From NCBI RefSeq assembly GCF_026341825.1, contig NZ_JAPENY010000002.1:434001-498000 (forward strand): 64,000 nucleotides of DNA. The letters are read 5' to 3'. Positions 2,710-15,587 of the stretch are shown in pieces. Origin of the DNA: Streptomyces sp. NBC_00620 (GTDB lineage: Bacteria > Actinomycetota > Actinomycetes > Streptomycetales > Streptomycetaceae). The position numbers and the translations under genes are program-made. Position 1 is the first letter of the stretch. Each line of letters starts with the position of its first letter. The notes beneath the pieces were generated by a model. It was not told the origin of the DNA. It saw nothing but the letters and a program-made list of their open reading frames with translations, and searched no databases.

Positions 2710-4223
2710 CCAGCACGATCGACACCGAAGAGCCTCCGCGTAAACACAAGTTCACCTTTCCCAGCGCGCTGACCGTCCTCGCCATCGTCACGATCGCGGT
2801 CTGGGCGCTGGCGTTTCTGATCCCATCCGGGCAGTACGACCGCGACGACGCGGGCGCGCCCGTCCAGGGCACCTACCACCGGGTCGACTCCGGCCAGAGC
2901 TTCGTCGACCGGCTCAACGACCTCTTCCTCTCTCCCGTCAACGGCCTCTACGGCGTCCAGGACGAGAAGAGCGGGCAGGTCGGGCCCGACATGGCCGGTG
3001 AACTGTACGGCAGCGCGGGCGTGTTCCTCTTCGTGCTCGCCATCGGGGCCTTCATCACCGTCGTCTTCGCCACGGGCGCCCTCGACCGGGGCATCGGGCG
3101 GCTCGCCCACCGGCTGCGTGAGCGCGGGGCGTTGCTCATCGCGGGCGTGATGGTGGTGTTCTCGGTGCTCGGCACGGTGGAGGGCTTCGCCGAGGAGACG
3201 CTCGGCTTCTACGGGCTGATCGTGCCGTTGATGCTGGCCCTGGGGTACGACCGGATGGTGGCCGTCGGCGCGATCATTCTCGGTGCCGGGATCGGTGTGC
3301 TGTGCTCGACGGTGAACCCCTTCGCGACGGGTGTGGCCTCGTCCGCCGCGGACATCTCGCTCGGTGACGGCATCGTGCTGAGGTTCGTGATGTGGGTGGT
3401 GCTGACGGCGGTGACGGTCGCGTACGTCATCCGGTACGCGCGGCGCGTGCAGAAGACCCCGGACCGGTCGCTCACCGGGTTCCTGCCCGGCGACCGCGAG
3501 CAGGCCAGCGAGGCCGCGGGCGAGGTGCCCGAGCTGACCGGCCTGCACAAGGCGGTCCTTGTCGCGACGGCGCTGGTCTTCGCCTTCATGATCTTCTCGG
3601 TGGTGCCCTGGGCGAGCGCGCTCACGGGCGAGGCGGACGCGACACCGTACGGCTTCGAACTCGGTTGGTCCTTCCCGCAGTTGGCGGCACTGTTCCTGTG
3701 CGCGGCGGTGCTGATCGGGCTGGTGGCGCGGATGGGCGAGCAGAAGCTGAGCGCGACGATCATCCAGGGTGCGGCGGACTTCATCTCCCCGGCGCTGGTG
3801 ATCGTGCTGGCGCGCGGAGTCACCGTGATCATGAACAACTCGAAGATCACCGACACCGTGCTGCATTCCATCGAGGGCGTCGTGAAGGGCACCTCCTCGG
3901 GCGTCTTCGCGATCATCGTCTTCGTCGTGAACCTGCCGCTGGCCTTCCTCATCCCGTCCACCTCGGGCCACGCGACCCTGGCCATGCCGATCCTCGCCCC
4001 GCTCGCCGACTTCGCGGGCGTCTCCCGCGCGGTGGTCGTCACCGCCTGGCAGTCCGCCAGCGGCTGGATGAACCTCTGGGTCCCCACCACCGCCGTCACC
4101 ATCGGCGGCGTCGCCCTCGCCAAGGTCGGCTACGACAAGTACCTCCGCTTCGTCTGGCCGCTCCTCGCCATCCTGTTCCTGCTGATCTGCGGGTTCGTGG
4201 CGGCCGGCGCGGCGATGACCTGA
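2706..4223 (+). CDS. YfcC/DcuC-type basic amino acid or C4-dicarboxylate permease
   Basis: A 505-residue polytopic membrane protein with about 12 hydrophobic segments. Family features are the early FLIPSGQYDR loop, the GTVEGFAEETLGFY motif, the STVNPFATG segment and the LIPSTSGHATLAMP re-entrant-like motif. These are characteristic of the YfcC family related to arginine/ornithine and C4-dicarboxylate carriers. The start is a TTG at 2706 overlapping the peptidase stop (TTGA), with GAGGGGG 5 nt upstream. Coupling to an M20 dipeptidase suggests import of a peptide or amino-acid conjugate; the substrate cannot be read from sequence. The stop codon is the first unit of a 9-bp tandem repeat. Confidence 0.88.
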   Translation: MTSTIDTEEPPRKHKFTFPSALTVLAIVTIAVWALAFLIPSGQYDRDDAGAPVQGTYHRVDSGQSFVDRLNDLFLSPVNGLYGVQDEKSGQVGPDMAGELYGSAGVFLFVLAIGAFITVVFATGALDRGIGRLAHRLRERGALLIAGVMVVFSVLGTVEGFAEETLGFYGLIVPLMLALGYDRMVAVGAIILGAGIGVLCSTVNPFATGVASSAADISLGDGIVLRFVMWVVLTAVTVAYVIRYARRVQKTPDRSLTGFLPGDREQASEAAGEVPELTGLHKAVLVATALVFAFMIFSVVPWASALTGEADATPYGFELGWSFPQLAALFLCAAVLIGLVARMGEQKLSATIIQGAADFISPALVIVLARGVTVIMNNSKITDTVLHSIEGVVKGTSSGVFAIIVFVVNLPLAFLIPSTSGHATLAMPILAPLADFAGVSRAVVVTAWQSASGWMNLWVPTTAVTIGGVALAKVGYDKYLRFVWPLLAILFLLICGFVAAGAAMT

Positions 4224-4265
4224 CCGACCTGACCGACCTGACCGACCTGACCGACCTGACCGACG
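4221..4265. repeat. five tandem 9-bp repeats starting at a stop codon
   Basis: TGACCGACC is repeated four times, followed by TGACCGACG. Because the unit is a multiple of three and begins with TGA, each copy repeats the permease stop codon in frame. It fills most of the gap to the uracil-DNA glycosylase gene, just upstream of that gene's -10 box (4281-4286). Confidence 0.95.
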
Positions 4266-4292
4266 TGATCGCCCCGGTCGTACGGTGGTGGC

Positions 4293-5039
4293 ATGGATGT
4301 CGGCGGTCTTGCGGAGCTGGACGGGCGGATCACGGGGTGCCGGGCCTGTCCCCGCCTTGTCGAGTGGCGTGAGGACGTGGCCCGTACCAAGCGCGCGGCC
4401 TTCGCCGACGAGACGTACTGGGGACGGCCGGTCCCGGGGTTCGGACCCGCCGACGCGTCCCTGCTGATCGTCGGCCTCGCGCCCGCCGCGCACGGTGCGA
4501 ACCGGACCGGGCGGATGTTCACAGGGGACCGCTCCGGGGATGTGCTCTACGCGGCGCTGCACGAGGTGGGACTCGCGTCGAAGGGGACCGCGGTGAGTGC
4601 GGACGACGGGCTGGAGCTGTACGGCGTACGCATCACCTCGCCCGTGCACTGCGCTCCGCCGGCCAACAAGCCGACGCCGGACGAGCGGGACGCCTGCCGG
4701 CCGTGGCTCGTGCGGGAACTGGAGCTGCTGCGGCCCTCACTGCGGGCGGTTGTCGTACTCGGAGCCTTCGGGTGGCAGGCCGCGCTGCCTGCCTTCGCCG
4801 CGGCGGGGTGGGCGGTGCCCCGTCCCCGCCCCGCGTTCGCACACGGAGCGCGGCTCACGCTCGGAGCGCCGCTCGAGTCCGGACCGCCGCTCGCGTCCGG
4901 CTCGATCGAGCTCTTCGGATGCTTCCACGTCAGCCAGCGCAACACCTTCACCGGGCGGCTGACCCCCGAGATGCTGCGGGAGGTGCTGCGCGCCGCGGCG
5001 GATGCGGCGGGGCTGCCGACGAAGCCGTACCCGGGCTAG
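4293..5039 (+). CDS. uracil-DNA glycosylase, family 5 (UdgB type)
   Basis: A 248-residue base-excision repair enzyme. Motif A is GLAPAAHGANRTGRMF (61-76), which carries the Ala-His of family 5 instead of the Glu/Asp of family 4. Motif B is HVSQRNTFTGRLTP (212-225). Four cysteines at 16, 19, 120 and 135 are placed to bind a 4Fe-4S cluster as in family 4/5 enzymes. Family 5 removes uracil and also hypoxanthine or xanthine from DNA. The ATG lacks a ribosome site; TACGGT (4281-4286) ends 6 nt upstream, so the mRNA is probably leaderless. Confidence 0.9.
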   Translation: MDVGGLAELDGRITGCRACPRLVEWREDVARTKRAAFADETYWGRPVPGFGPADASLLIVGLAPAAHGANRTGRMFTGDRSGDVLYAALHEVGLASKGTAVSADDGLELYGVRITSPVHCAPPANKPTPDERDACRPWLVRELELLRPSLRAVVVLGAFGWQAALPAFAAAGWAVPRPRPAFAHGARLTLGAPLESGPPLASGSIELFGCFHVSQRNTFTGRLTPEMLREVLRAAADAAGLPTKPYPG

Positions 5040-5066
5040 TGGCCGCTCCCCGCGTGCGGGGGTTCG

Positions 5067-5714
5067 CTAGCCGTCCCCGAAGAGATGGCGCACCGTCGAC
5101 CGGTAGTTGGCCTGGACGTGTGCGAGGGCGTGCGCGCGGGCGCGGTCCGGGTCGCCGGATGCGATGGAGTCGTACAACTCATGGTGTTCGGTGAGGAGTT
5201 GGGGCCACTCCTCGTTCTGCCGGGTGAGCCAGCGCAGGCGGCCGTCGACCGGTTCCATGACGGAGATCAGCAAGCTGTTGCCCGCCATGGCGAGGATGCG
5301 GTCGTGGAAACGGGTGTTGATGTCGGTGATCGTCTCGGCGTCCCCGGCGCGGGTCGCGGTCGCCGCGCGGTCGAGCAACTCCCGTAGTTCCGCGAGGTCT
5401 TGCGGCGTGGAACGGGAGGCGGCGAGCCCGGCCGCGTAGACCTCGAGGGCCTCGCGCAGTTCGAAGAGTTCCTTCACGTCGGTCGGGGTCAGCCGGCGCA
5501 CCACCGTGCGGCGCGGCGTCTCGAAGTGCACGAACCCCTCGCCGACCAGTGAACGGATCGCCTCGCGGACCGGGACCCGGGAGACCCCGAAGCGCTCGGC
5601 GAGCTCGCGTTCGACCAGCCGGTCGCCGGGGCGCAGCCGTCCGGCGATGATCTCCTGCCGTAGCGCGGCGAGAACGCGCTCCCGCACCGCACCCAGGGGT
5701 TCGATCTTCGTCAT
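5067..5714 (-). CDS. GntR family regulator, FadR/FCD subfamily
   Basis: A 215-residue transcription factor. The winged HTH is at about 8-72 (IIAGRLRPGDRLVERELAERFGVSRVPVREAIRSL) and the FCD ligand domain at about 78-205. The FCD domain carries the D...N-x-x-FH metal-site pattern (ITDINTRFHDRI) and a later His-rich helix (EHHELYDSI, HALAHVQ). It is divergent from the NCS1 permease and racemase genes. The perfect palindrome at 5807-5820 is of the type bound by FCD regulators, so it most likely controls that operon and itself, with a hydantoin/purine catabolite as possible inducer. Confidence 0.92.
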   Translation of the reverse strand: MTKIEPLGAVRERVLAALRQEIIAGRLRPGDRLVERELAERFGVSRVPVREAIRSLVGEGFVHFETPRRTVVRRLTPTDVKELFELREALEVYAAGLAASRSTPQDLAELRELLDRAATATRAGDAETITDINTRFHDRILAMAGNSLLISVMEPVDGRLRWLTRQNEEWPQLLTEHHELYDSIASGDPDRARAHALAHVQANYRSTVRHLFGDG

Positions 5715-5806
5715 GGGTCCATGTTCGCCGACCTCGGGGGTGTTTTACGGAGTCGTAACTGCAAGGACATGGGCGGACGTCATCGGCGGCGGGACTATGA
5801 CGACAG

Positions 5807-5820
5807 TTTGGTATACCAAA
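5807..5820. promoter_or_regulatory. GntR/FCD operator palindrome
   Basis: TTTGGTATACCAAA is a perfect 14-bp inverted repeat with the TGGTATACCA core expected for FadR-subfamily (FCD) GntR proteins. It lies in the 173-bp divergent intergenic region between the GntR gene (start 5714) and the NCS1 permease (start 5888). Its position suggests repression of both. Confidence 0.8.
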
Positions 5821-5887
5821 GTGATCTCAAAGCTGTACCGAACAAGACCGAAAGGCCGCCCTCCGTCCCCTCGCCCATGGAGGCCCC

Positions 5888-7351
5888 GTGTCCCTCGCCG
5901 ACCGTGCCGAAGCCACCGGCACCGCCGCGTTCGTCCCCGATCCCCGCCTCACCAACGAAGACCTCGCGCCCGCGCAGAAGCGGAACTGGAAGGTCTTCGA
6001 CCTCTTCGCCATGTGGATGTCCGACGTCCACAACCTCGGCAACTACACGTTCGCGGCAGGCCTGTTGGTCCTCGGCATGAACGTCTGGCAGATCTTCACC
6101 TCGCTGCTCGTCGGCTTCGTGATCATCTACGCCGGGATGAACCTGATGGGCCGGGTCGGGCAGCGCACCGGTGTGCCCTTCCCCGTCGTCAGCCGCATCA
6201 GCTTCGGCGTCTGGGGTGCCAACATCCCCGCGCTGATCAGGGCGGTCATCGCCATCATGTGGTACGGCATCCAGACCTATCTGGCGTCGGTGGCGGTCAA
6301 CGTGATGCTGCTCGCGGCCTGGCCCGGCCTGGAGTCCTGGACCCACCACTCCTTCCTCGGCCTGGACGCGCTCGGCTGGGTGTCGTTCGTCGCGCTCTGG
6401 CTTGTCCAGGCGATGATCATCAGCCAGGGCATGGAGTCGGTCCGCAAGTTCCAGGACTTCTGCGGCCCCGCCATCTGGCTGGTCATGATCGCCCTCGCCA
6501 TCTGGGTTCTGTCCAAGGCGGGTTGGACCATCTCCCTCACCTCGACCCCGCACCCGGTGTCGGTCGGCGAGCAGTGGCGGCAGTGGTTCGGCGCGATCGG
6601 GCTGATCCTGGCCACCTACGGCACCCTGATGCTCAACTTCTGCGACTTCTCGCGCTTCGCGCCCGGCTACAAGACCGTCAGGCGCGGCAACTTCTGGGGC
6701 CTGCCCGTCAATTCGACGGCCTTCGTGATCGTCTCGGTCATCGTCACGGCCGGTTCCATCGAGGTGTTCGGCGAGGCCATCACCGACCCGGCGCTGCTCG
6801 TCGCCAAGGTCGGCAACACCTGGGTCCTCGTCCTCGGCGCCCTGACCTTCGCCATCGCCACCATGGGCGTCAACATCGTCGCCAACTTCGTCTCACCGGC
6901 GTACGACCTCGCCAACGTCTGGCCGCAGAAGATCACCTTCAGGATCGGCGGCATGATCAGCACGGTGGCCGCGCTCCTTGTGACCCCCTGGAACCTCTTC
7001 TCCAACCCCACGGTCGTCAACTATTTCCTCGGCGGCCTCGGCGCCTTCCTGGGACCGCTGTTCGGCGTGATCATGCTCGACTACTACTGGGTCAAGCGCG
7101 GCCGCGTCGACGTCGACCAGCTCTTCAACGCCCAGCCGGGATCGCCCTATTACTACAAAAAAGGCGTCAACCCCAAGGCGCTGTGGGCGTTCCTTCCCTC
7201 CGCGGCGGTCGCGGCGGTACTCGCGCTGGTTAAGGACTTCAGCGACGTGGCCCCGTACTCCTGGTTCATCGGTACGGCGCTGGCGGCCGGACTGTACGCG
7301 CTGTTGTGCCGCTCGGAGCGCGCCGCCGTCCCCGCTTCTGCGGCGGGCTGA
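5888..7351 (+). CDS. NCS1 family permease (hydantoin/allantoin/cytosine type)
   Basis: A 487-residue nucleobase:cation symporter-1 with 12 predicted helices. The N-terminal signature region (NEDLAPAQKRNWKVFDLFAMWMSDVHNLGNYTFAAGLL) contains the Trp/Asn substrate-site pattern seen in Mhp1-like hydantoin and allantoin carriers. GTG start with GGAG 6 nt upstream. The racemase gene starts 2 nt after the stop, so it is one operon. With the racemase, hydantoins or allantoin are the likeliest substrates; cytosine or uracil cannot be excluded by reading alone. Confidence 0.9.
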   Translation: MSLADRAEATGTAAFVPDPRLTNEDLAPAQKRNWKVFDLFAMWMSDVHNLGNYTFAAGLLVLGMNVWQIFTSLLVGFVIIYAGMNLMGRVGQRTGVPFPVVSRISFGVWGANIPALIRAVIAIMWYGIQTYLASVAVNVMLLAAWPGLESWTHHSFLGLDALGWVSFVALWLVQAMIISQGMESVRKFQDFCGPAIWLVMIALAIWVLSKAGWTISLTSTPHPVSVGEQWRQWFGAIGLILATYGTLMLNFCDFSRFAPGYKTVRRGNFWGLPVNSTAFVIVSVIVTAGSIEVFGEAITDPALLVAKVGNTWVLVLGALTFAIATMGVNIVANFVSPAYDLANVWPQKITFRIGGMISTVAALLVTPWNLFSNPTVVNYFLGGLGAFLGPLFGVIMLDYYWVKRGRVDVDQLFNAQPGSPYYYKKGVNPKALWAFLPSAAVAAVLALVKDFSDVAPYSWFIGTALAAGLYALLCRSERAAVPASAAG

Positions 7352-12419: not shown

Positions 12420-13151
12420 GTGGCGAAACTCAATCAGATCATCGCAGTGGAGAAGGGCATCAAGTCCAAGTCCCATCAGGACCTGACGTCCGCTCATCAT
12501 GGGCTGCAGAAGCCCGCGTTGCTGGCCGGCATCTCGCGGACGTACCAGCCGAAGGACGAGGAGGGCGAGCAGTTGCCGCCCGAGTCGACTCGGGTGCAGG
12601 TGCAGGCCGAGGACGTGCTGCGGGAGACCGCGGGGACGCTGACGCGGCTGTTCGATGTGACCGCCACCAAGGACTGGGCGAACTGCACGGCGCGCGCGGA
12701 TGTGAAGGTCGACGGGCGGGTGCTCGTCGCCGAGGTGCCCGTGTCGTATCTGCTGTTCCTCGAGAAGCAGCTCACCGACCTCAACACGTTTGTGCGGAAG
12801 CTGCCCGTCCTCGACGCCTCCGAGTCGTGGGTGCAGGATCCCTCCACCGATGCGTGGAAGACCGAGCCCGTGCGGACGCTTCGTACGAAGAAGGTGCCCC
12901 GAAACCACGTCAAGGCCGAGGCTACCGAGAAGCATCCCGCTCAGGTCGAGGTGTACTACGAGGACATACCCGTCGGGTACTGGACGACCGTGAAGTTCTC
13001 CGGCGCCCTGCCCGCCCGGCGCGTCAACGAACTCCTCGGCCGCGTCGAGAAGTTGCAGCAGGCCGTCAAGTTCGCCCGCGAGGAGGCGAACGGCGTGGAC
13101 GTCGTCGACCAGCACGTCGGCGACTCCGTGTTCGGCTACCTGTTCGGGTAG
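12420..13151 (+). CDS. conserved protein of unknown function (DUF7873-like), next to Y RNA
   Basis: A 243-residue soluble, basic protein without signal peptide or membrane segment. I recall this family (MAKLNQIIAVEKGIKSKSH... start) as a domain of unknown function, probably DUF7873, also found in actinophages, but could not check. Notable features are a lysine-rich N-terminus (AVEKGIKSKSHQDLTSAHHGLQKP), a central beta-rich part (TARADVKVDGRVLVAEVPVSYLLFLEKQLTDL), the motif ESWVQDP...WKTEP, and a C-terminal helical stretch. GTG at 12420 has no ribosome site; TGATAC (12404-12409) ends 10 nt upstream, so it may be leaderless. The structured RNA begins about 150 nt downstream on the same strand. 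Function unknown; RNA-related role is speculation from position. Confidence 0.85.
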   Translation: MAKLNQIIAVEKGIKSKSHQDLTSAHHGLQKPALLAGISRTYQPKDEEGEQLPPESTRVQVQAEDVLRETAGTLTRLFDVTATKDWANCTARADVKVDGRVLVAEVPVSYLLFLEKQLTDLNTFVRKLPVLDASESWVQDPSTDAWKTEPVRTLRTKKVPRNHVKAEATEKHPAQVEVYYEDIPVGYWTTVKFSGALPARRVNELLGRVEKLQQAVKFAREEANGVDVVDQHVGDSVFGYLFG

Positions 13152-13163
13152 CCTCCAGAACTC

Positions 13164-13185
13164 CCGGCCAATGCACCACGGCCGG
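13164..13185. terminator. hairpin after the DUF7873-like gene
   Basis: CCGGCC (13164-13169) pairs perfectly with GGCCGG (13180-13185) around a 10-nt loop, 12 nt after the stop codon. No U tract, so it may be an attenuator or weak terminator separating the gene from the RNA downstream. Confidence 0.35.
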
Positions 13186-13303
13186 GGTGCGCGAGGAGCG
13201 CAAAGCTGAAGCTGAAGCTTGTCGTGATGAGCGGTCGTACCCACCAAAGCAGTAAAGGGCGGACCGCGGTCAATCTCAGACTCTTGCTCCAGACTCAGTA
13301 TTC

Positions 13304-13462
13304 GCCGCCCATCGCCGGATCGACCGGGCCCAGGCCCCGGACGTCGAAATGCCGGTTCAAGTCCGGCCCGCACAGCTCGATGTGCGGTGGTCCAAAGGCA
13401 GGACGCGGCGACATGACGACTGACCTGGGTCCTCAAGCGTGCCGGCGTGTGAATTGGGTGGC
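13304..13462 (+). ncRNA. Y RNA-like noncoding RNA with circularly permuted tRNA mimic (YrlA type)
   Basis: The segment folds into a long interrupted stem capped by a complete tRNA-like module in permuted order. Stem: 13304-13310/13456-13462 (7 bp), 13313-13318/13442-13447 (6 bp), 13326-13334/13424-13432 (9 bp), 13338-13340/13420-13422 and 13342-13345/13415-13418. Module: T arm 13351-13355/13363-13367 with loop TTCAAGT (13356-13362); acceptor-like helix 13368-13374/13381-13387 (7 bp, perfect), closed by hexaloop GCTCGA; T at position 8 (13388); D arm 13390-13393/13401-13404 with loop AAAGGCA (A14, G18G19 and A21 equivalents). Nucleotide 13350 (T) could pair with A15 as a Levitt pair. No anticodon exists; the stem takes its place. 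This is the architecture known for bacterial Y RNAs, which bind Ro60-like Rsr proteins and mimic tRNA. Transcript ends are not known; plausibly from about 13280 to the terminator at 13511. Confidence 0.82.
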
Positions 13463-13468
13463 ATCACA

Positions 13469-13511
13469 GGGTCCGGGGGCCGGCTACGCCCTCGGGCCCG
13501 CTCCCGTTTTT
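13469..13511 (+). terminator. intrinsic terminator of the Y RNA-like transcript
   Basis: Arms 13469-13479 and 13489-13499 form an 11-bp GC-rich hairpin (two G-U pairs). After CTCCCG a run of five T follows at 13507-13511. This is one of the few clear U tracts in the window and lies 7 nt after the end of the structured RNA. Confidence 0.65.
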
Positions 13512-13715
13512 GCGTACATCGGCCATGGACGCCGGTCGCGTGCATCGGCTTCGTACAGGGGTTGCGTTCATAAAGAACGCGCCCTCCACGCGAAGCGTCA
13601 CCTCGCCGAAACACTTGCGTTCCATTCCCTCCAGTAACTCGATCTACCGTAGGCACCACAACAGCCCGGCCGATGTCGCCCGAAGGCGCCCCCGCCCTCG
13701 CCCGACAGGAGCCCC
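13512..13715. other. gap before the FUSC gene
   Basis: About 200 bp between the Y RNA terminator and the FUSC gene. It has short AT-richer stretches (CATAAAGAAC near 13570) that may hold the FUSC promoter, but I see no convincing -35/-10 pair and no reading frame with a ribosome site. Confidence 0.4.
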
Positions 13716-15587
13716 GTGCCACTCCCCAGCGTCGCCCTGCCGCCCTGGCTCGCCCATGCCCTGCGCGCCCAGCGGGGACCCGTTCCCTGGAGCGCGGTCG
13801 TCCGGGGTGCGCTGGCGGCCGGGCCGCTGCTGCTCGTGGCGGTGGTCGCCGGGCAGCCGTCCGTCGGAGTGGTCGCGGCGCTCGGGGCCATGCTCGCCGG
13901 GATCAACGACCGGCCCGGGAGCCGGCGGGCCGCCGTCAGGAGGATTGGGGTGCCCGGCCTCGCGGGGGCCGGAGGGCTGCTCGTCGGGTCGTACGCCGGA
14001 GAGCATGTCGGGGCGGTGACCCTCACCCTGTTCCTCACTGTTCTCGGGCTCGTCGCGGGCGGCATGAGCGCCGTCGGGCCCGTCGCCTCCGGGGCCGGCA
14101 CGCAGTTGCTCGTGGCCTGCGCCATCGGGGCCGGGATGCCGCTGCCCGAACCCGGGTGGCAGCGCGCGCTGTTCTACCTCGCCGGCGCCGGGTGGCTCAT
14201 CGCGCTGCGGCTCGCGCTGCCGACGACCGCGGTCACTGCCGGTGACTACCGGTTCGACGGGGAGCGGGACGCCGTCGGCGCCGTGTACGACGCGATCGCC
14301 GAGCTGCTGATCGCCGCAGGGGGGACGGACGCGACCGCTCGCAGGGTCGCGCTGACCGCCGCGCTCGACCACGCGCAGGACGCGCTCGCCGGGCCCCGGC
14401 TGCGGCGGTACGCCAGCTCCGGGGCCGAGCGGCGGCTGCATGCGCAGTACGCCGCCGCGCTGCCGCTCGCCGAGGCCGCGACCGCGCTCGCCTGGGTGGG
14501 AGAGGCGGTGCCCGCGCGGGCCGCGGAAGGACCCCGGCGGCTCGCCACCGCCGTACGGACCGGCGCGCACACCGGACCACTGCCCGCGCCCTCCCGCTCC
14601 GCGCCCGCCCTGCGCGCCCTCGACGACGCGCTGCTGCACGCCGCCGACGCCTTCGACGGGGGCGGCACCGGAAGGAACCTGCACACCCGGCGTCGTACCG
14701 CCCTGTCCCTCGCGCGCACCGCCTTCGGCGCGGGAGGGCGTGAGTACGGGCTCCGGGTCGCCCTCTGCTTCGGCGCGAGCGCGGGCGTGGCGCAGGCCCT
14801 GCACCACGCCCAGTGGTACGGGAACCACTCCCACTGGTACTGGCTCCCCGCGACCGCCGTCTTCCTCGTCAAGCCCGACCTCGGGCCGCTCGCCTCGCGG
14901 GTGCTGTGCCGGGCGGCGGGGACCGTCCTTGGCGCCATCGTCTTCGCGGGGCTCGCCGCACTGCTGCCCAGGCCCGCCGGGCTGGTCGCCGTCGTGGCCG
15001 TATGCGGCGCCCTGATCCCCGTCGCCACACGGCACTTCGCGGCGCAGACCGCCGTCGTCACCGTTCTCGTGCTCGCCCTCGTCATGGTGGCGGGGGAGCC
15101 GCCGGCCGCCTGGAGCCGCATCGGCGAGACGCTGCTGGCCTGCGCGATCGTGCTGCTCGTCGGGCATCTGCCGGCGCTCGGGCAGCGCGGAGGGACGGTA
15201 CGGGCCCGGCTCGCCCGCGCCGTGGAGGCGGCGGACGCCTACCTCGCGCATGTGCTGAACGAAGGCACGACGGACGACAAGGCCGGCCGCTGGGCCCTGC
15301 GCCGCGAGGCCTATCGCGCGCTCGCCGAGGCCCGTGCCGCGATCGACCTCGCCGCCGCCGAACTCCCCGCCCTCGCACGGCACGCGGAGGGCACGGACGA
15401 GGTGGCGGCCACCCTCGAACGACTCGTCGACACGACGACGGCGTGCGCGGTCCAGCTCGACGACAACGGGCGGCTCACGCCCCGCCACACCGAGCGGATC
15501 GTCGAACTCCTCCACGAACTGGCCGAGGGGCGGGCGCGGGCGGGGCTTCGTGTGAAGCAGGGGTCCGAGGTGCCCGTCGCTGTGTGA
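13716..15587 (+). CDS. FUSC family integral membrane protein (aromatic acid exporter-like)
   Basis: A 623-residue protein with the two-block FUSC layout. An N-terminal group of about six hydrophobic helices (about 22-170) is followed by a soluble helical part (170-340), a second helical group (about 350-490, including YGNHSHWYWLPATAVFLVKPDLGPLASRVLCRAAGT) and a C-terminal cytoplasmic region. FUSC proteins include p-hydroxybenzoate efflux (AaeB) and related exporters; the substrate here is unknown. GTG start with a GGAG site (AGGAGCCCC) 5 nt upstream. Followed by an amidohydrolase and a P450 on the same strand. Confidence 0.88.
   Translation: MPLPSVALPPWLAHALRAQRGPVPWSAVVRGALAAGPLLLVAVVAGQPSVGVVAALGAMLAGINDRPGSRRAAVRRIGVPGLAGAGGLLVGSYAGEHVGAVTLTLFLTVLGLVAGGMSAVGPVASGAGTQLLVACAIGAGMPLPEPGWQRALFYLAGAGWLIALRLALPTTAVTAGDYRFDGERDAVGAVYDAIAELLIAAGGTDATARRVALTAALDHAQDALAGPRLRRYASSGAERRLHAQYAAALPLAEAATALAWVGEAVPARAAEGPRRLATAVRTGAHTGPLPAPSRSAPALRALDDALLHAADAFDGGGTGRNLHTRRRTALSLARTAFGAGGREYGLRVALCFGASAGVAQALHHAQWYGNHSHWYWLPATAVFLVKPDLGPLASRVLCRAAGTVLGAIVFAGLAALLPRPAGLVAVVAVCGALIPVATRHFAAQTAVVTVLVLALVMVAGEPPAAWSRIGETLLACAIVLLVGHLPALGQRGGTVRARLARAVEAADAYLAHVLNEGTTDDKAGRWALRREAYRALAEARAAIDLAAAELPALARHAEGTDEVAATLERLVDTTTACAVQLDDNGRLTPRHTERIVELLHELAEGRARAGLRVKQGSEVPVAV

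Follow-up and report, generated by a model that had tools for sequence, protein, structure and literature searches.

Does a permuted tRNA mimic in a Streptomyces genome have to be a Y RNA? The question is raised by a sequence on contig NZ_JAPENY010000002.1 of Streptomyces sp. NBC_00620, of which a stretch of 64,000 nucleotides, referred to as the window, was analysed. The protein partner known for bacterial Y RNAs is Rsr, a homologue of Ro60, and a preliminary description had taken positions 13304 to 13462 for a Y RNA-like RNA, comparing it with the YrlA group. The features of this part, all on the forward strand, are as follows.

13304-13462, forward strand: arm B, the element flagged by the preliminary description
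13304-13311 and 13455-13462, forward strand: P1, read from the window sequence alone
13313-13318 (5' strand) and 13442-13447 (3' strand), forward strand: P2
13319-13325 (5' side, ATCGACC) and 13433-13441 (3' side, consensus CTTAAACG), forward strand: conserved internal loop
13326-13334 (5' strand) and 13424-13432 (3' strand), forward strand: P3
13343-13346 and 13409-13412, forward strand: P4, below the head
13351-13404, forward strand: tRNA-like head B, composed of T arm, 7-bp acceptor hairpin and D arm
13351-13367, forward strand: T arm of head B, stem 13351-13355/13363-13367, loop TTCAAGT at 13356-13362
13368-13387, forward strand: acceptor-like hairpin linking the 3' and 5' halves, perfect 7-bp helix 13368-13374/13381-13387
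between 13374 and 13381, forward strand: hexaloop GCTCGA closing the acceptor-like helix
13388-13404, forward strand: T8 (13388) and D arm, D stem 13390-13393/13401-13404
13394, 13397-13398 and 13400, forward strand: equivalents of A14, GG and A21 in the D arm

All elements from which the permuted fold had been composed could be located: the T arm with its 5-bp stem and seven-base loop, the perfect acceptor-like helix with its hexaloop and the 3' half placed before the 5' half, T8 followed by a D arm with the three expected equivalents, and a long helical stem, P4 to P1, in place of the anticodon arm. The argument that such an arrangement is hard to obtain by chance also held, since the region 13304-13462 folded with a z-score of -3.2, only one of 200 shuffles being equally low, and its helices covaried in relatives. 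The minimum-energy fold of the single sequence (-81.3 kcal/mol) did not contain the T and D arms, whereas the tRNA-like structure reached -69.8 kcal/mol. The case for head B therefore rests on comparison and not on energy.

For this comparison a covariance model of arm B, designated R1, was built from 43 sequences with 35 pairs. It was derived from 46 relatives, of which two (L083 and L113) were excluded because of long loops and two others (L061 and L088) were also left out; the latter pair was subsequently matched by R1 with 96.5 and 73.5 bits. R1 matched the window at 13312-13450 over its full length with 122 bits, the window being a member of the seed. In the 43-sequence alignment 87.2% of the cells of the arm B structure were paired, as opposed to 40.5-43.4% when the alignment was slid, and the covariation score was 0.762 as opposed to 0.14-0.17. 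Helices that had not been used in sequence selection (P2, P3 in two parts and the D stem) scored 0.782 against 0.11-0.18. With neither set of helices did shuffles ever equal the observed covariation score or paired percentage. By a cruder measure, the number of pairs changed on both sides, the observed count was reached by 5 of 500 shuffles for the whole structure and by 42 of 500 for the P2/P3/D-stem set. Both-side changes occurred in all six pairs of P2 (94.0% of cells paired) and in all nine pairs of P3 (90.3% and 79.0% in its two parts); the D stem of head B was paired in 95.9% of cells. P4 was misaligned in this alignment (38.6% paired). In a swap test it nevertheless scored 13.0 against 9.6 (sd 0.37), a value attained by none of 300 swaps, and in both arms of 49 sequences P4 strands from one sequence matched each other better than strands taken from different sequences (no swap of 300 did as well in either arm). 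Sequences entered the seed only if a scan found in them the TC-R-A core of the T loop, T8 and almost complete pairing in the T and acceptor stems, so the invariance of these parts is partly built in. Head B was also present at all 30 DUF7873 loci taken from genomes of the order (see below), which were oriented by strand. Conservation and covariation, on which the preliminary description had made its proposal depend, were thus both found, and a permuted tRNA-like head on a long stem is confirmed in the window. The internal loop between P2 and P3 is a candidate protein site; its motif T[CT]AA[AG][CT]G, a pattern chosen on the same data, was present in 38 of 46 representatives.

The interval 13304-13462 correctly delimited arm B, but arm B is only one of two arms. 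The conserved element measures about 350 nt, from approximately 13160 to approximately 13505, and begins just past the stop codon of a DUF7873 gene. Its remaining features and the gene are:

12420-13151, forward strand: DUF7873 gene (PF25283), 243 aa, Pfam score 402 bits against a cut-off of 27
13163-13186, forward strand: hairpin H1 (CCCGGCC/GGCCGGG), directly after the stop codon, start of the conserved element
13188-13202, forward strand: hairpin H2 (TGCGC-GAGGA-GCGCA), seen in the sequence, with an equivalent by eye in the relatives inspected
13204-13299, forward strand: arm A, basal strands 13204-13217 and 13287-13299, stem 13231-13235/13263-13267
13275-13292, forward strand: conserved motif CTCAGACTCTTGCTCCAG of arm A (core consensus T-YGYTC)
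13469-13499, forward strand: 3' hairpin, terminator-like, with a GGCTACG segment at its tip

A hairpin at the position of H1 was also seen by eye in the Streptomyces relatives inspected. Arm A of the window was taken from the minimum-energy fold, with a z-score of only -1.2, and carries a plain hairpin in place of a tRNA-like head. Its core motif T-YGYTC, a pattern picked by eye on the same data, occurred in 38 of 46 representatives. The 3' hairpin folded with a z-score of -2.3, and 25 of 46 relatives have such a hairpin with the loop GGNYAYG; shuffled sequences gave a mean of 0.36 and a largest value of 2.

Elsewhere arm A frequently possesses a permuted head of its own. In a strict scan for two spaced heads, a second head (head A) lay 5' of head B at 123 of 202 loci, of which 122 were long enough for analysis and 49 remained after thinning. 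Head A showed 99.1% paired cells and a covariation score of 0.674 against 0.09-0.17 for slid alignments, although pairing of its T and acceptor stems had formed part of the selection. When as many as 900 bases 3' of the DUF7873 gene were scanned by looser criteria, which also admit chance hits, at least two permuted heads were detected at 55 of 80 viral loci (top-ranking among 213) and at 52 of 80 genome loci (top-ranking among at least 490), one head at 18 and 28 of these, and none at 7 and 0, respectively. As background, the same criteria gave matches in 20 of 158 stretches lying upstream and in 12 of 160 that had been shuffled. Among the best 80 of at least 490 genome candidates together with the window, head A was absent from 29 of 81 loci. 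At all 29 the corresponding stretch folded as a hairpin of at least five pairs, and its median length was 34 bases, compared with 86 where the head was present. Arm B was kept at 80 of 80 genome loci (best 80 of at least 490). Head A can evidently be lost and head B cannot, which suggests that the essential contact is made by B.

The constant neighbour of the RNA turned out to be the DUF7873 gene directly upstream, which the preliminary description had not linked to it. DUF7873 genes were found in 72 of 147 sampled genomes of the order, 73 genes in total. Downstream of 72 of these genes, on the same strand, came a full-length R1 match at a distance of 147-296 bases (median 208); the match behind the remaining one (in G029) is partial because the contig ends there, at base 4227. 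Conversely, there were 73 R1 matches at E<=1e-10 in this sample, all of full length, and 72 of them lay beside DUF7873. The exception, in G089 (locus L224, G089:C309:20200-23200), is an RNA without the gene, a tblastn search with the window protein finding nothing there. Weaker and mostly partial matches are more common, 143 of the 147 genomes having some match at E<=0.001. Eight R1 matches in the window's own genome were examined as loci; besides the RNA, they fall on tRNA clusters, tandem identical Asn and Val genes among them, and on the two RNAs of an Rsr locus. Among genome contigs with the gene (best 80 of at least 490, near-copies included; 78 named Streptomyces), R1 matched at all 80, including 74 of 74 outside the seed. 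The gene-RNA pair is nearly obligate. As to synteny in Streptomyces, the 2.5 kb flanks contained a FUSC gene at 29 and an amidase gene at 4 of 80 loci (best 80 of at least 490). In a thin sample of the phylum DUF7873 was detected in 6 of 296 genomes, all six of the window's genus.

Some single loci deserve mention. At L224 arm A appeared hairpin-like and, by eye, similarity to other loci started just past the expected position of the stop codon. Contig G003:C1 carries two DUF7873 genes (3313871-3314596 and 6402497-6403222), each with its RNA. Of 14 control genomes, Deinobacterium chartae alone matched DUF7873, and it alone matched TROVE.

The pair is also widespread in phages. By tblastn DUF7873 was detected in 73 phage records (Vibrio 29, Gordonia 12, Rhizobium 12, Klebsiella 7, Serratia 6, Arthrobacter 3, Pseudanabaena 2, Rhodococcus 1 and Microcoleus 1), and in a plasmid collection in four records, three from Streptomyces and one from Nonomuraea. 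R1 matched downstream of the gene in all nine phage records examined, five of which are in the seed; scores were 121 bits for Arthrobacter, 48 for Rhizobium and 31 (E 2e-6) for Vibrio phages. Among viral contigs of IMG/VR (best 80 of 213 loci), 76 of 80 had R1 matches of at least 50 bits, as did 48 of the 52 outside the seed, near-copies included. In the same set none was detectable near the gene in L055, L056 and L104, and only a weak match in L081. When frames overlapping DUF7873 were set aside, no other gene recurred nearly as widely around these 80 of 213 viral loci, the next eight neighbour clusters being present at 8-11 of 80. Four larger clusters (13-72 loci) were rejected as true neighbours; 211 of their 213 members start upstream of the DUF7873 stop codon, and these clusters seem to be alternative frames of that gene. 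In a DUF7873 tree (midpoint root, bootstrap not fully settled) seven Streptomycetaceae proteins formed one clade and joined four viral contigs (98/97), a topology suggestive of capture from phages.

The protein itself gives few clues. The upstream gene is a clear member of DUF7873, which Pfam describes as a family of unknown function, and no paper in the open-licence literature searched names it. The nearest protein, 98% identical, is from S. diastatochromogenes (among the best 80 of at least 490 genome candidates). Of five AlphaFold models two exceeded a pLDDT of 90 and three lay between 61 and 76; the best had a pLDDT of 92.4 and a pTM of 0.76. Foldseek found no match under E 0.001 among solved and viral structures, a PDB sequence search gave a best E of only 0.064, and the best VIA-align row (Z 7.2, rmsd 11.1 A over 175 residues) was at background level. 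No TROVE/Ro60 entry appeared in the VIA-align list, an absence that excludes nothing. PHROGs, NCBIfam and PADLOC returned no family for the two or three DUF7873 proteins searched. Six proteins were near neutral to acidic (pI 5.5-7.0). Because DUF7873 has no recognised fold and is not basic, RNA binding stays putative.

A constant pair of gene and RNA, with no other gene equally widespread, points to a ribonucleoprotein (RNP). The reading that we prefer, giving it about an even chance, is that of a two-component RNP module independent of Ro60 and probably of phage origin, in which the part of Rsr is played by DUF7873 and a tRNA-binding partner is recruited through the heads. The pattern for this is YrlA, a tRNA-like domain on a stem, in which, according to excerpts of PMC8394870, the stem holds Rsr and the head holds PNPase. 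DUF7873 and the RNA behind it would form one unit, and each arm would be able to carry a permuted head, arm B keeping it and arm A often losing it and being capped by a hairpin. By analogy with Rsr/Ro60 on the stem of a Y RNA, DUF7873 might bind the motifs at the bases of the arms (ATCGACC and its 3' counterpart in B, T-YGYTC in A). The L-shaped heads might dock on a tRNA-binding protein, as the head of YrlA does on PNPase. The RNA, which we infer to be transcribed, would in this way bring DUF7873 to the tRNA or RNA-decay machinery, and its role in infection could be to direct an RNA-decay or repair factor or to shield tRNAs. On the other hand, the analogy with YrlA is drawn from the head only. 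The viral loci without a detectable RNA near the gene (L055, L056 and L104) or with a weak match (L081), the two where the RNA is upstream or on the opposite strand (L107 and L112) and the RNA without a gene in G089 also speak against this reading.

On a broader scale, we find it slightly more probable than its contrary that the pair represents a widespread phage-borne class of RNP, made up of a two-headed tRNA-mimic RNA and a dedicated protein of unrecognised fold, that is either convergent with or split from Ro60/Y RNA and that many Streptomycetes have retained for cellular use. If this is true, the permuted tRNA-mimic design has been used more than once or has become separated from Ro60. 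Experiments on the purpose of permuted tRNA mimics would then have both a candidate protein partner and a covariance model to start from, and because the pair occurs in phages, frequently close to tRNA genes, the role of tRNA mimicry in infection can be put to a direct test. The pair was not described in the open-licence literature searched, nor in the excerpts of PMC8190616, PMC9569102, PMC8394870, PMC7824862 and PMC7790460.

The surroundings of the phage loci also invite another explanation. ARAGORN found 203 tRNA genes, 200 of them on the same strand, near 37 of 80 viral loci (best 80 of 213), and six of nine named phage records have annotated tRNAs within 3 kb. These raw counts fit a tRNA-linked role in infection. 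They would also fit a decoy or shield, whose tRNA-like heads would sequester or obstruct nucleases that cut tRNA, or enzymes that bind it, while a phage infects the cell, DUF7873 doing no more than stabilise the RNA. A role as competitive inhibitor has been suggested for YrlA in an excerpt of PMC7790460. We nevertheless consider a decoy rather unlikely, as it leaves the conserved base motifs unexplained. Moreover, the anticodon arm is the usual target of anticodon nucleases, and it is this arm that the head does not possess.

Could the element simply be a structured 3' untranslated region of the DUF7873 mRNA, acting in cis on its stability or in feedback by DUF7873? The short and constant distance behind the gene, the common strand and the 3' hairpin are what would be expected of it. 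However, the RNA occurs as an orphan in G089, lies upstream of DUF7873 in viral locus L107 and is on the other strand in L112. In Microcoleus phage My-WqHQDG (L037, 3001-5934) the DUF7873 gene is followed by a HEARO RNA (3950-4159, 129 bits) and a large open reading frame (4184-5461), probably a HEARO element with its own nuclease gene, and arm B is still recognisable beyond the insert (5704-5934, 51 bits). A purely cis-acting element is thus improbable, more so than a decoy.

The assignment to YrlA (RF02553) fared less well. The likeness is real in that a permuted head of T arm, acceptor and D arm sits on a long stem and the gene of a candidate protein partner adjoins, and this part of the preliminary description stands. 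In contrast to YrlA with its Rsr/Ro60, however, the partner DUF7873 is not a TROVE protein, the RNA has two arms and about 350 nt, its base motifs differ, it falls below the Rfam threshold and it is common in phages. No Rfam family reached its threshold over the window, and the YrlA model gave no match even at E<=5 within the 601 bases of 13140-13740. The gathering score of 69 bits was not reached in any source searched; the best relative (L038) scored 37.6 bits, below threshold though over the full length. A tandem tRNA-Asn pair in the own genome (L228/L214, G000:C2:3837863-3837975) scored 40.8 bits, and sub-threshold matches occurred in 13 of 14 control genomes. Since the model scores tandem tRNA-Asn genes above the relatives of this RNA, sub-threshold YrlA scores alone prove nothing, and workers should be warned that such matches can mark tandem tRNA genes.

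The own genome has one TROVE match, as the preliminary description had led one to look for, but it lies about 129 kb from the element and shows no linkage to it. A motif read by eye at that Rsr locus and repeated there, a putative Rsr site, had exact matches at that locus only and none in the window with up to three mismatches. Among the 147 genomes 45 had both DUF7873 and TROVE, 27 DUF7873 without TROVE, 35 TROVE only and 40 neither, an association that is not significant (Fisher p 0.07). Although the head is the same, related loci match the model below threshold and a TROVE gene exists in the same genome, an ordinary YrlA Y RNA bound by Rsr is very unlikely. Because there is no Rfam match, no linkage to rsr and no TROVE in 27 of 72 DUF7873 genomes, we call the RNA Y-RNA-like and leave it outside YrlA. 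The TROVE/Rsr locus (L001, G000:C3 575048-578227) is a classical-looking, separate Ro/Y RNA locus: its gene (685-2268) is preceded by two permuted tRNA-like RNAs, around 285-342 and 526-600.

That the element is a permuted tRNA gene processed to a working tRNA is scarcely credible. CCA-like letters do follow the acceptor strand (ACCA in 11 of 49 A heads, TCCA in 11 of 49 B heads), and ARAGORN reported a tRNA (Phe, Leu or undetermined) at 36 of 80 genome loci (L123-L202; best 80 of at least 490). On the other side there is no anticodon loop, the stem of arm B running instead into the covarying P3 and P2, and ARAGORN found no tRNA gene in the window. Its calls at L123-L202, from about +30 to +118 past the DUF7873 stop codon and thus over H1-H2 and the start of arm A, are taken as miscalls; genome annotations may list a tRNA there. 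Least credible of all is a relic of tandem identical tRNA genes: these are copies, so the 3' half of one can pair with the 5' half of the next, which may have been the origin of the head and agrees with the partial R1 matches on the tRNA-Asn and tRNA-Val pairs of the own genome, but the window contains no tRNA bodies, the 73 strong matches in the genomes of the order all cover the full model with P2 and P3 and lie, with one exception, beside DUF7873, and the P2/P3 stems persist through heavy compensatory change.

Other RNA classes were also compared. In tmRNA a tRNA-like part lies within a larger RNA, as it does here. The present element differs by its D stem and permuted order, and tmRNA had no Rfam match in the window at the gathering score, nor at E<=5 in 13140-13740. 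GOLLD RNA, described from phages and mycobacterial tRNA arrays, is likewise a large structured RNA near tRNA genes. The present RNA differs in its tRNA-like heads and in the protein gene that almost always accompanies it, and GOLLD had no Rfam match in the window. A Twister-sister match at 13345-13389 (E 5) was dismissed as chance; it coincides with the T arm and the acceptor hairpin. Two further RNA matches were seen beside phage loci. Arthrobacter phage Mimi (L032, 2165-2195) has an abiF RNA-like match of 33 bits against a threshold of 37. Gordonia phage Phendrix (L033, 1072-1600) has a tmRNA match of 89 bits against a cut-off of 47 inside a tRNA array, where the annotated features shown at the locus do not include a tmRNA.
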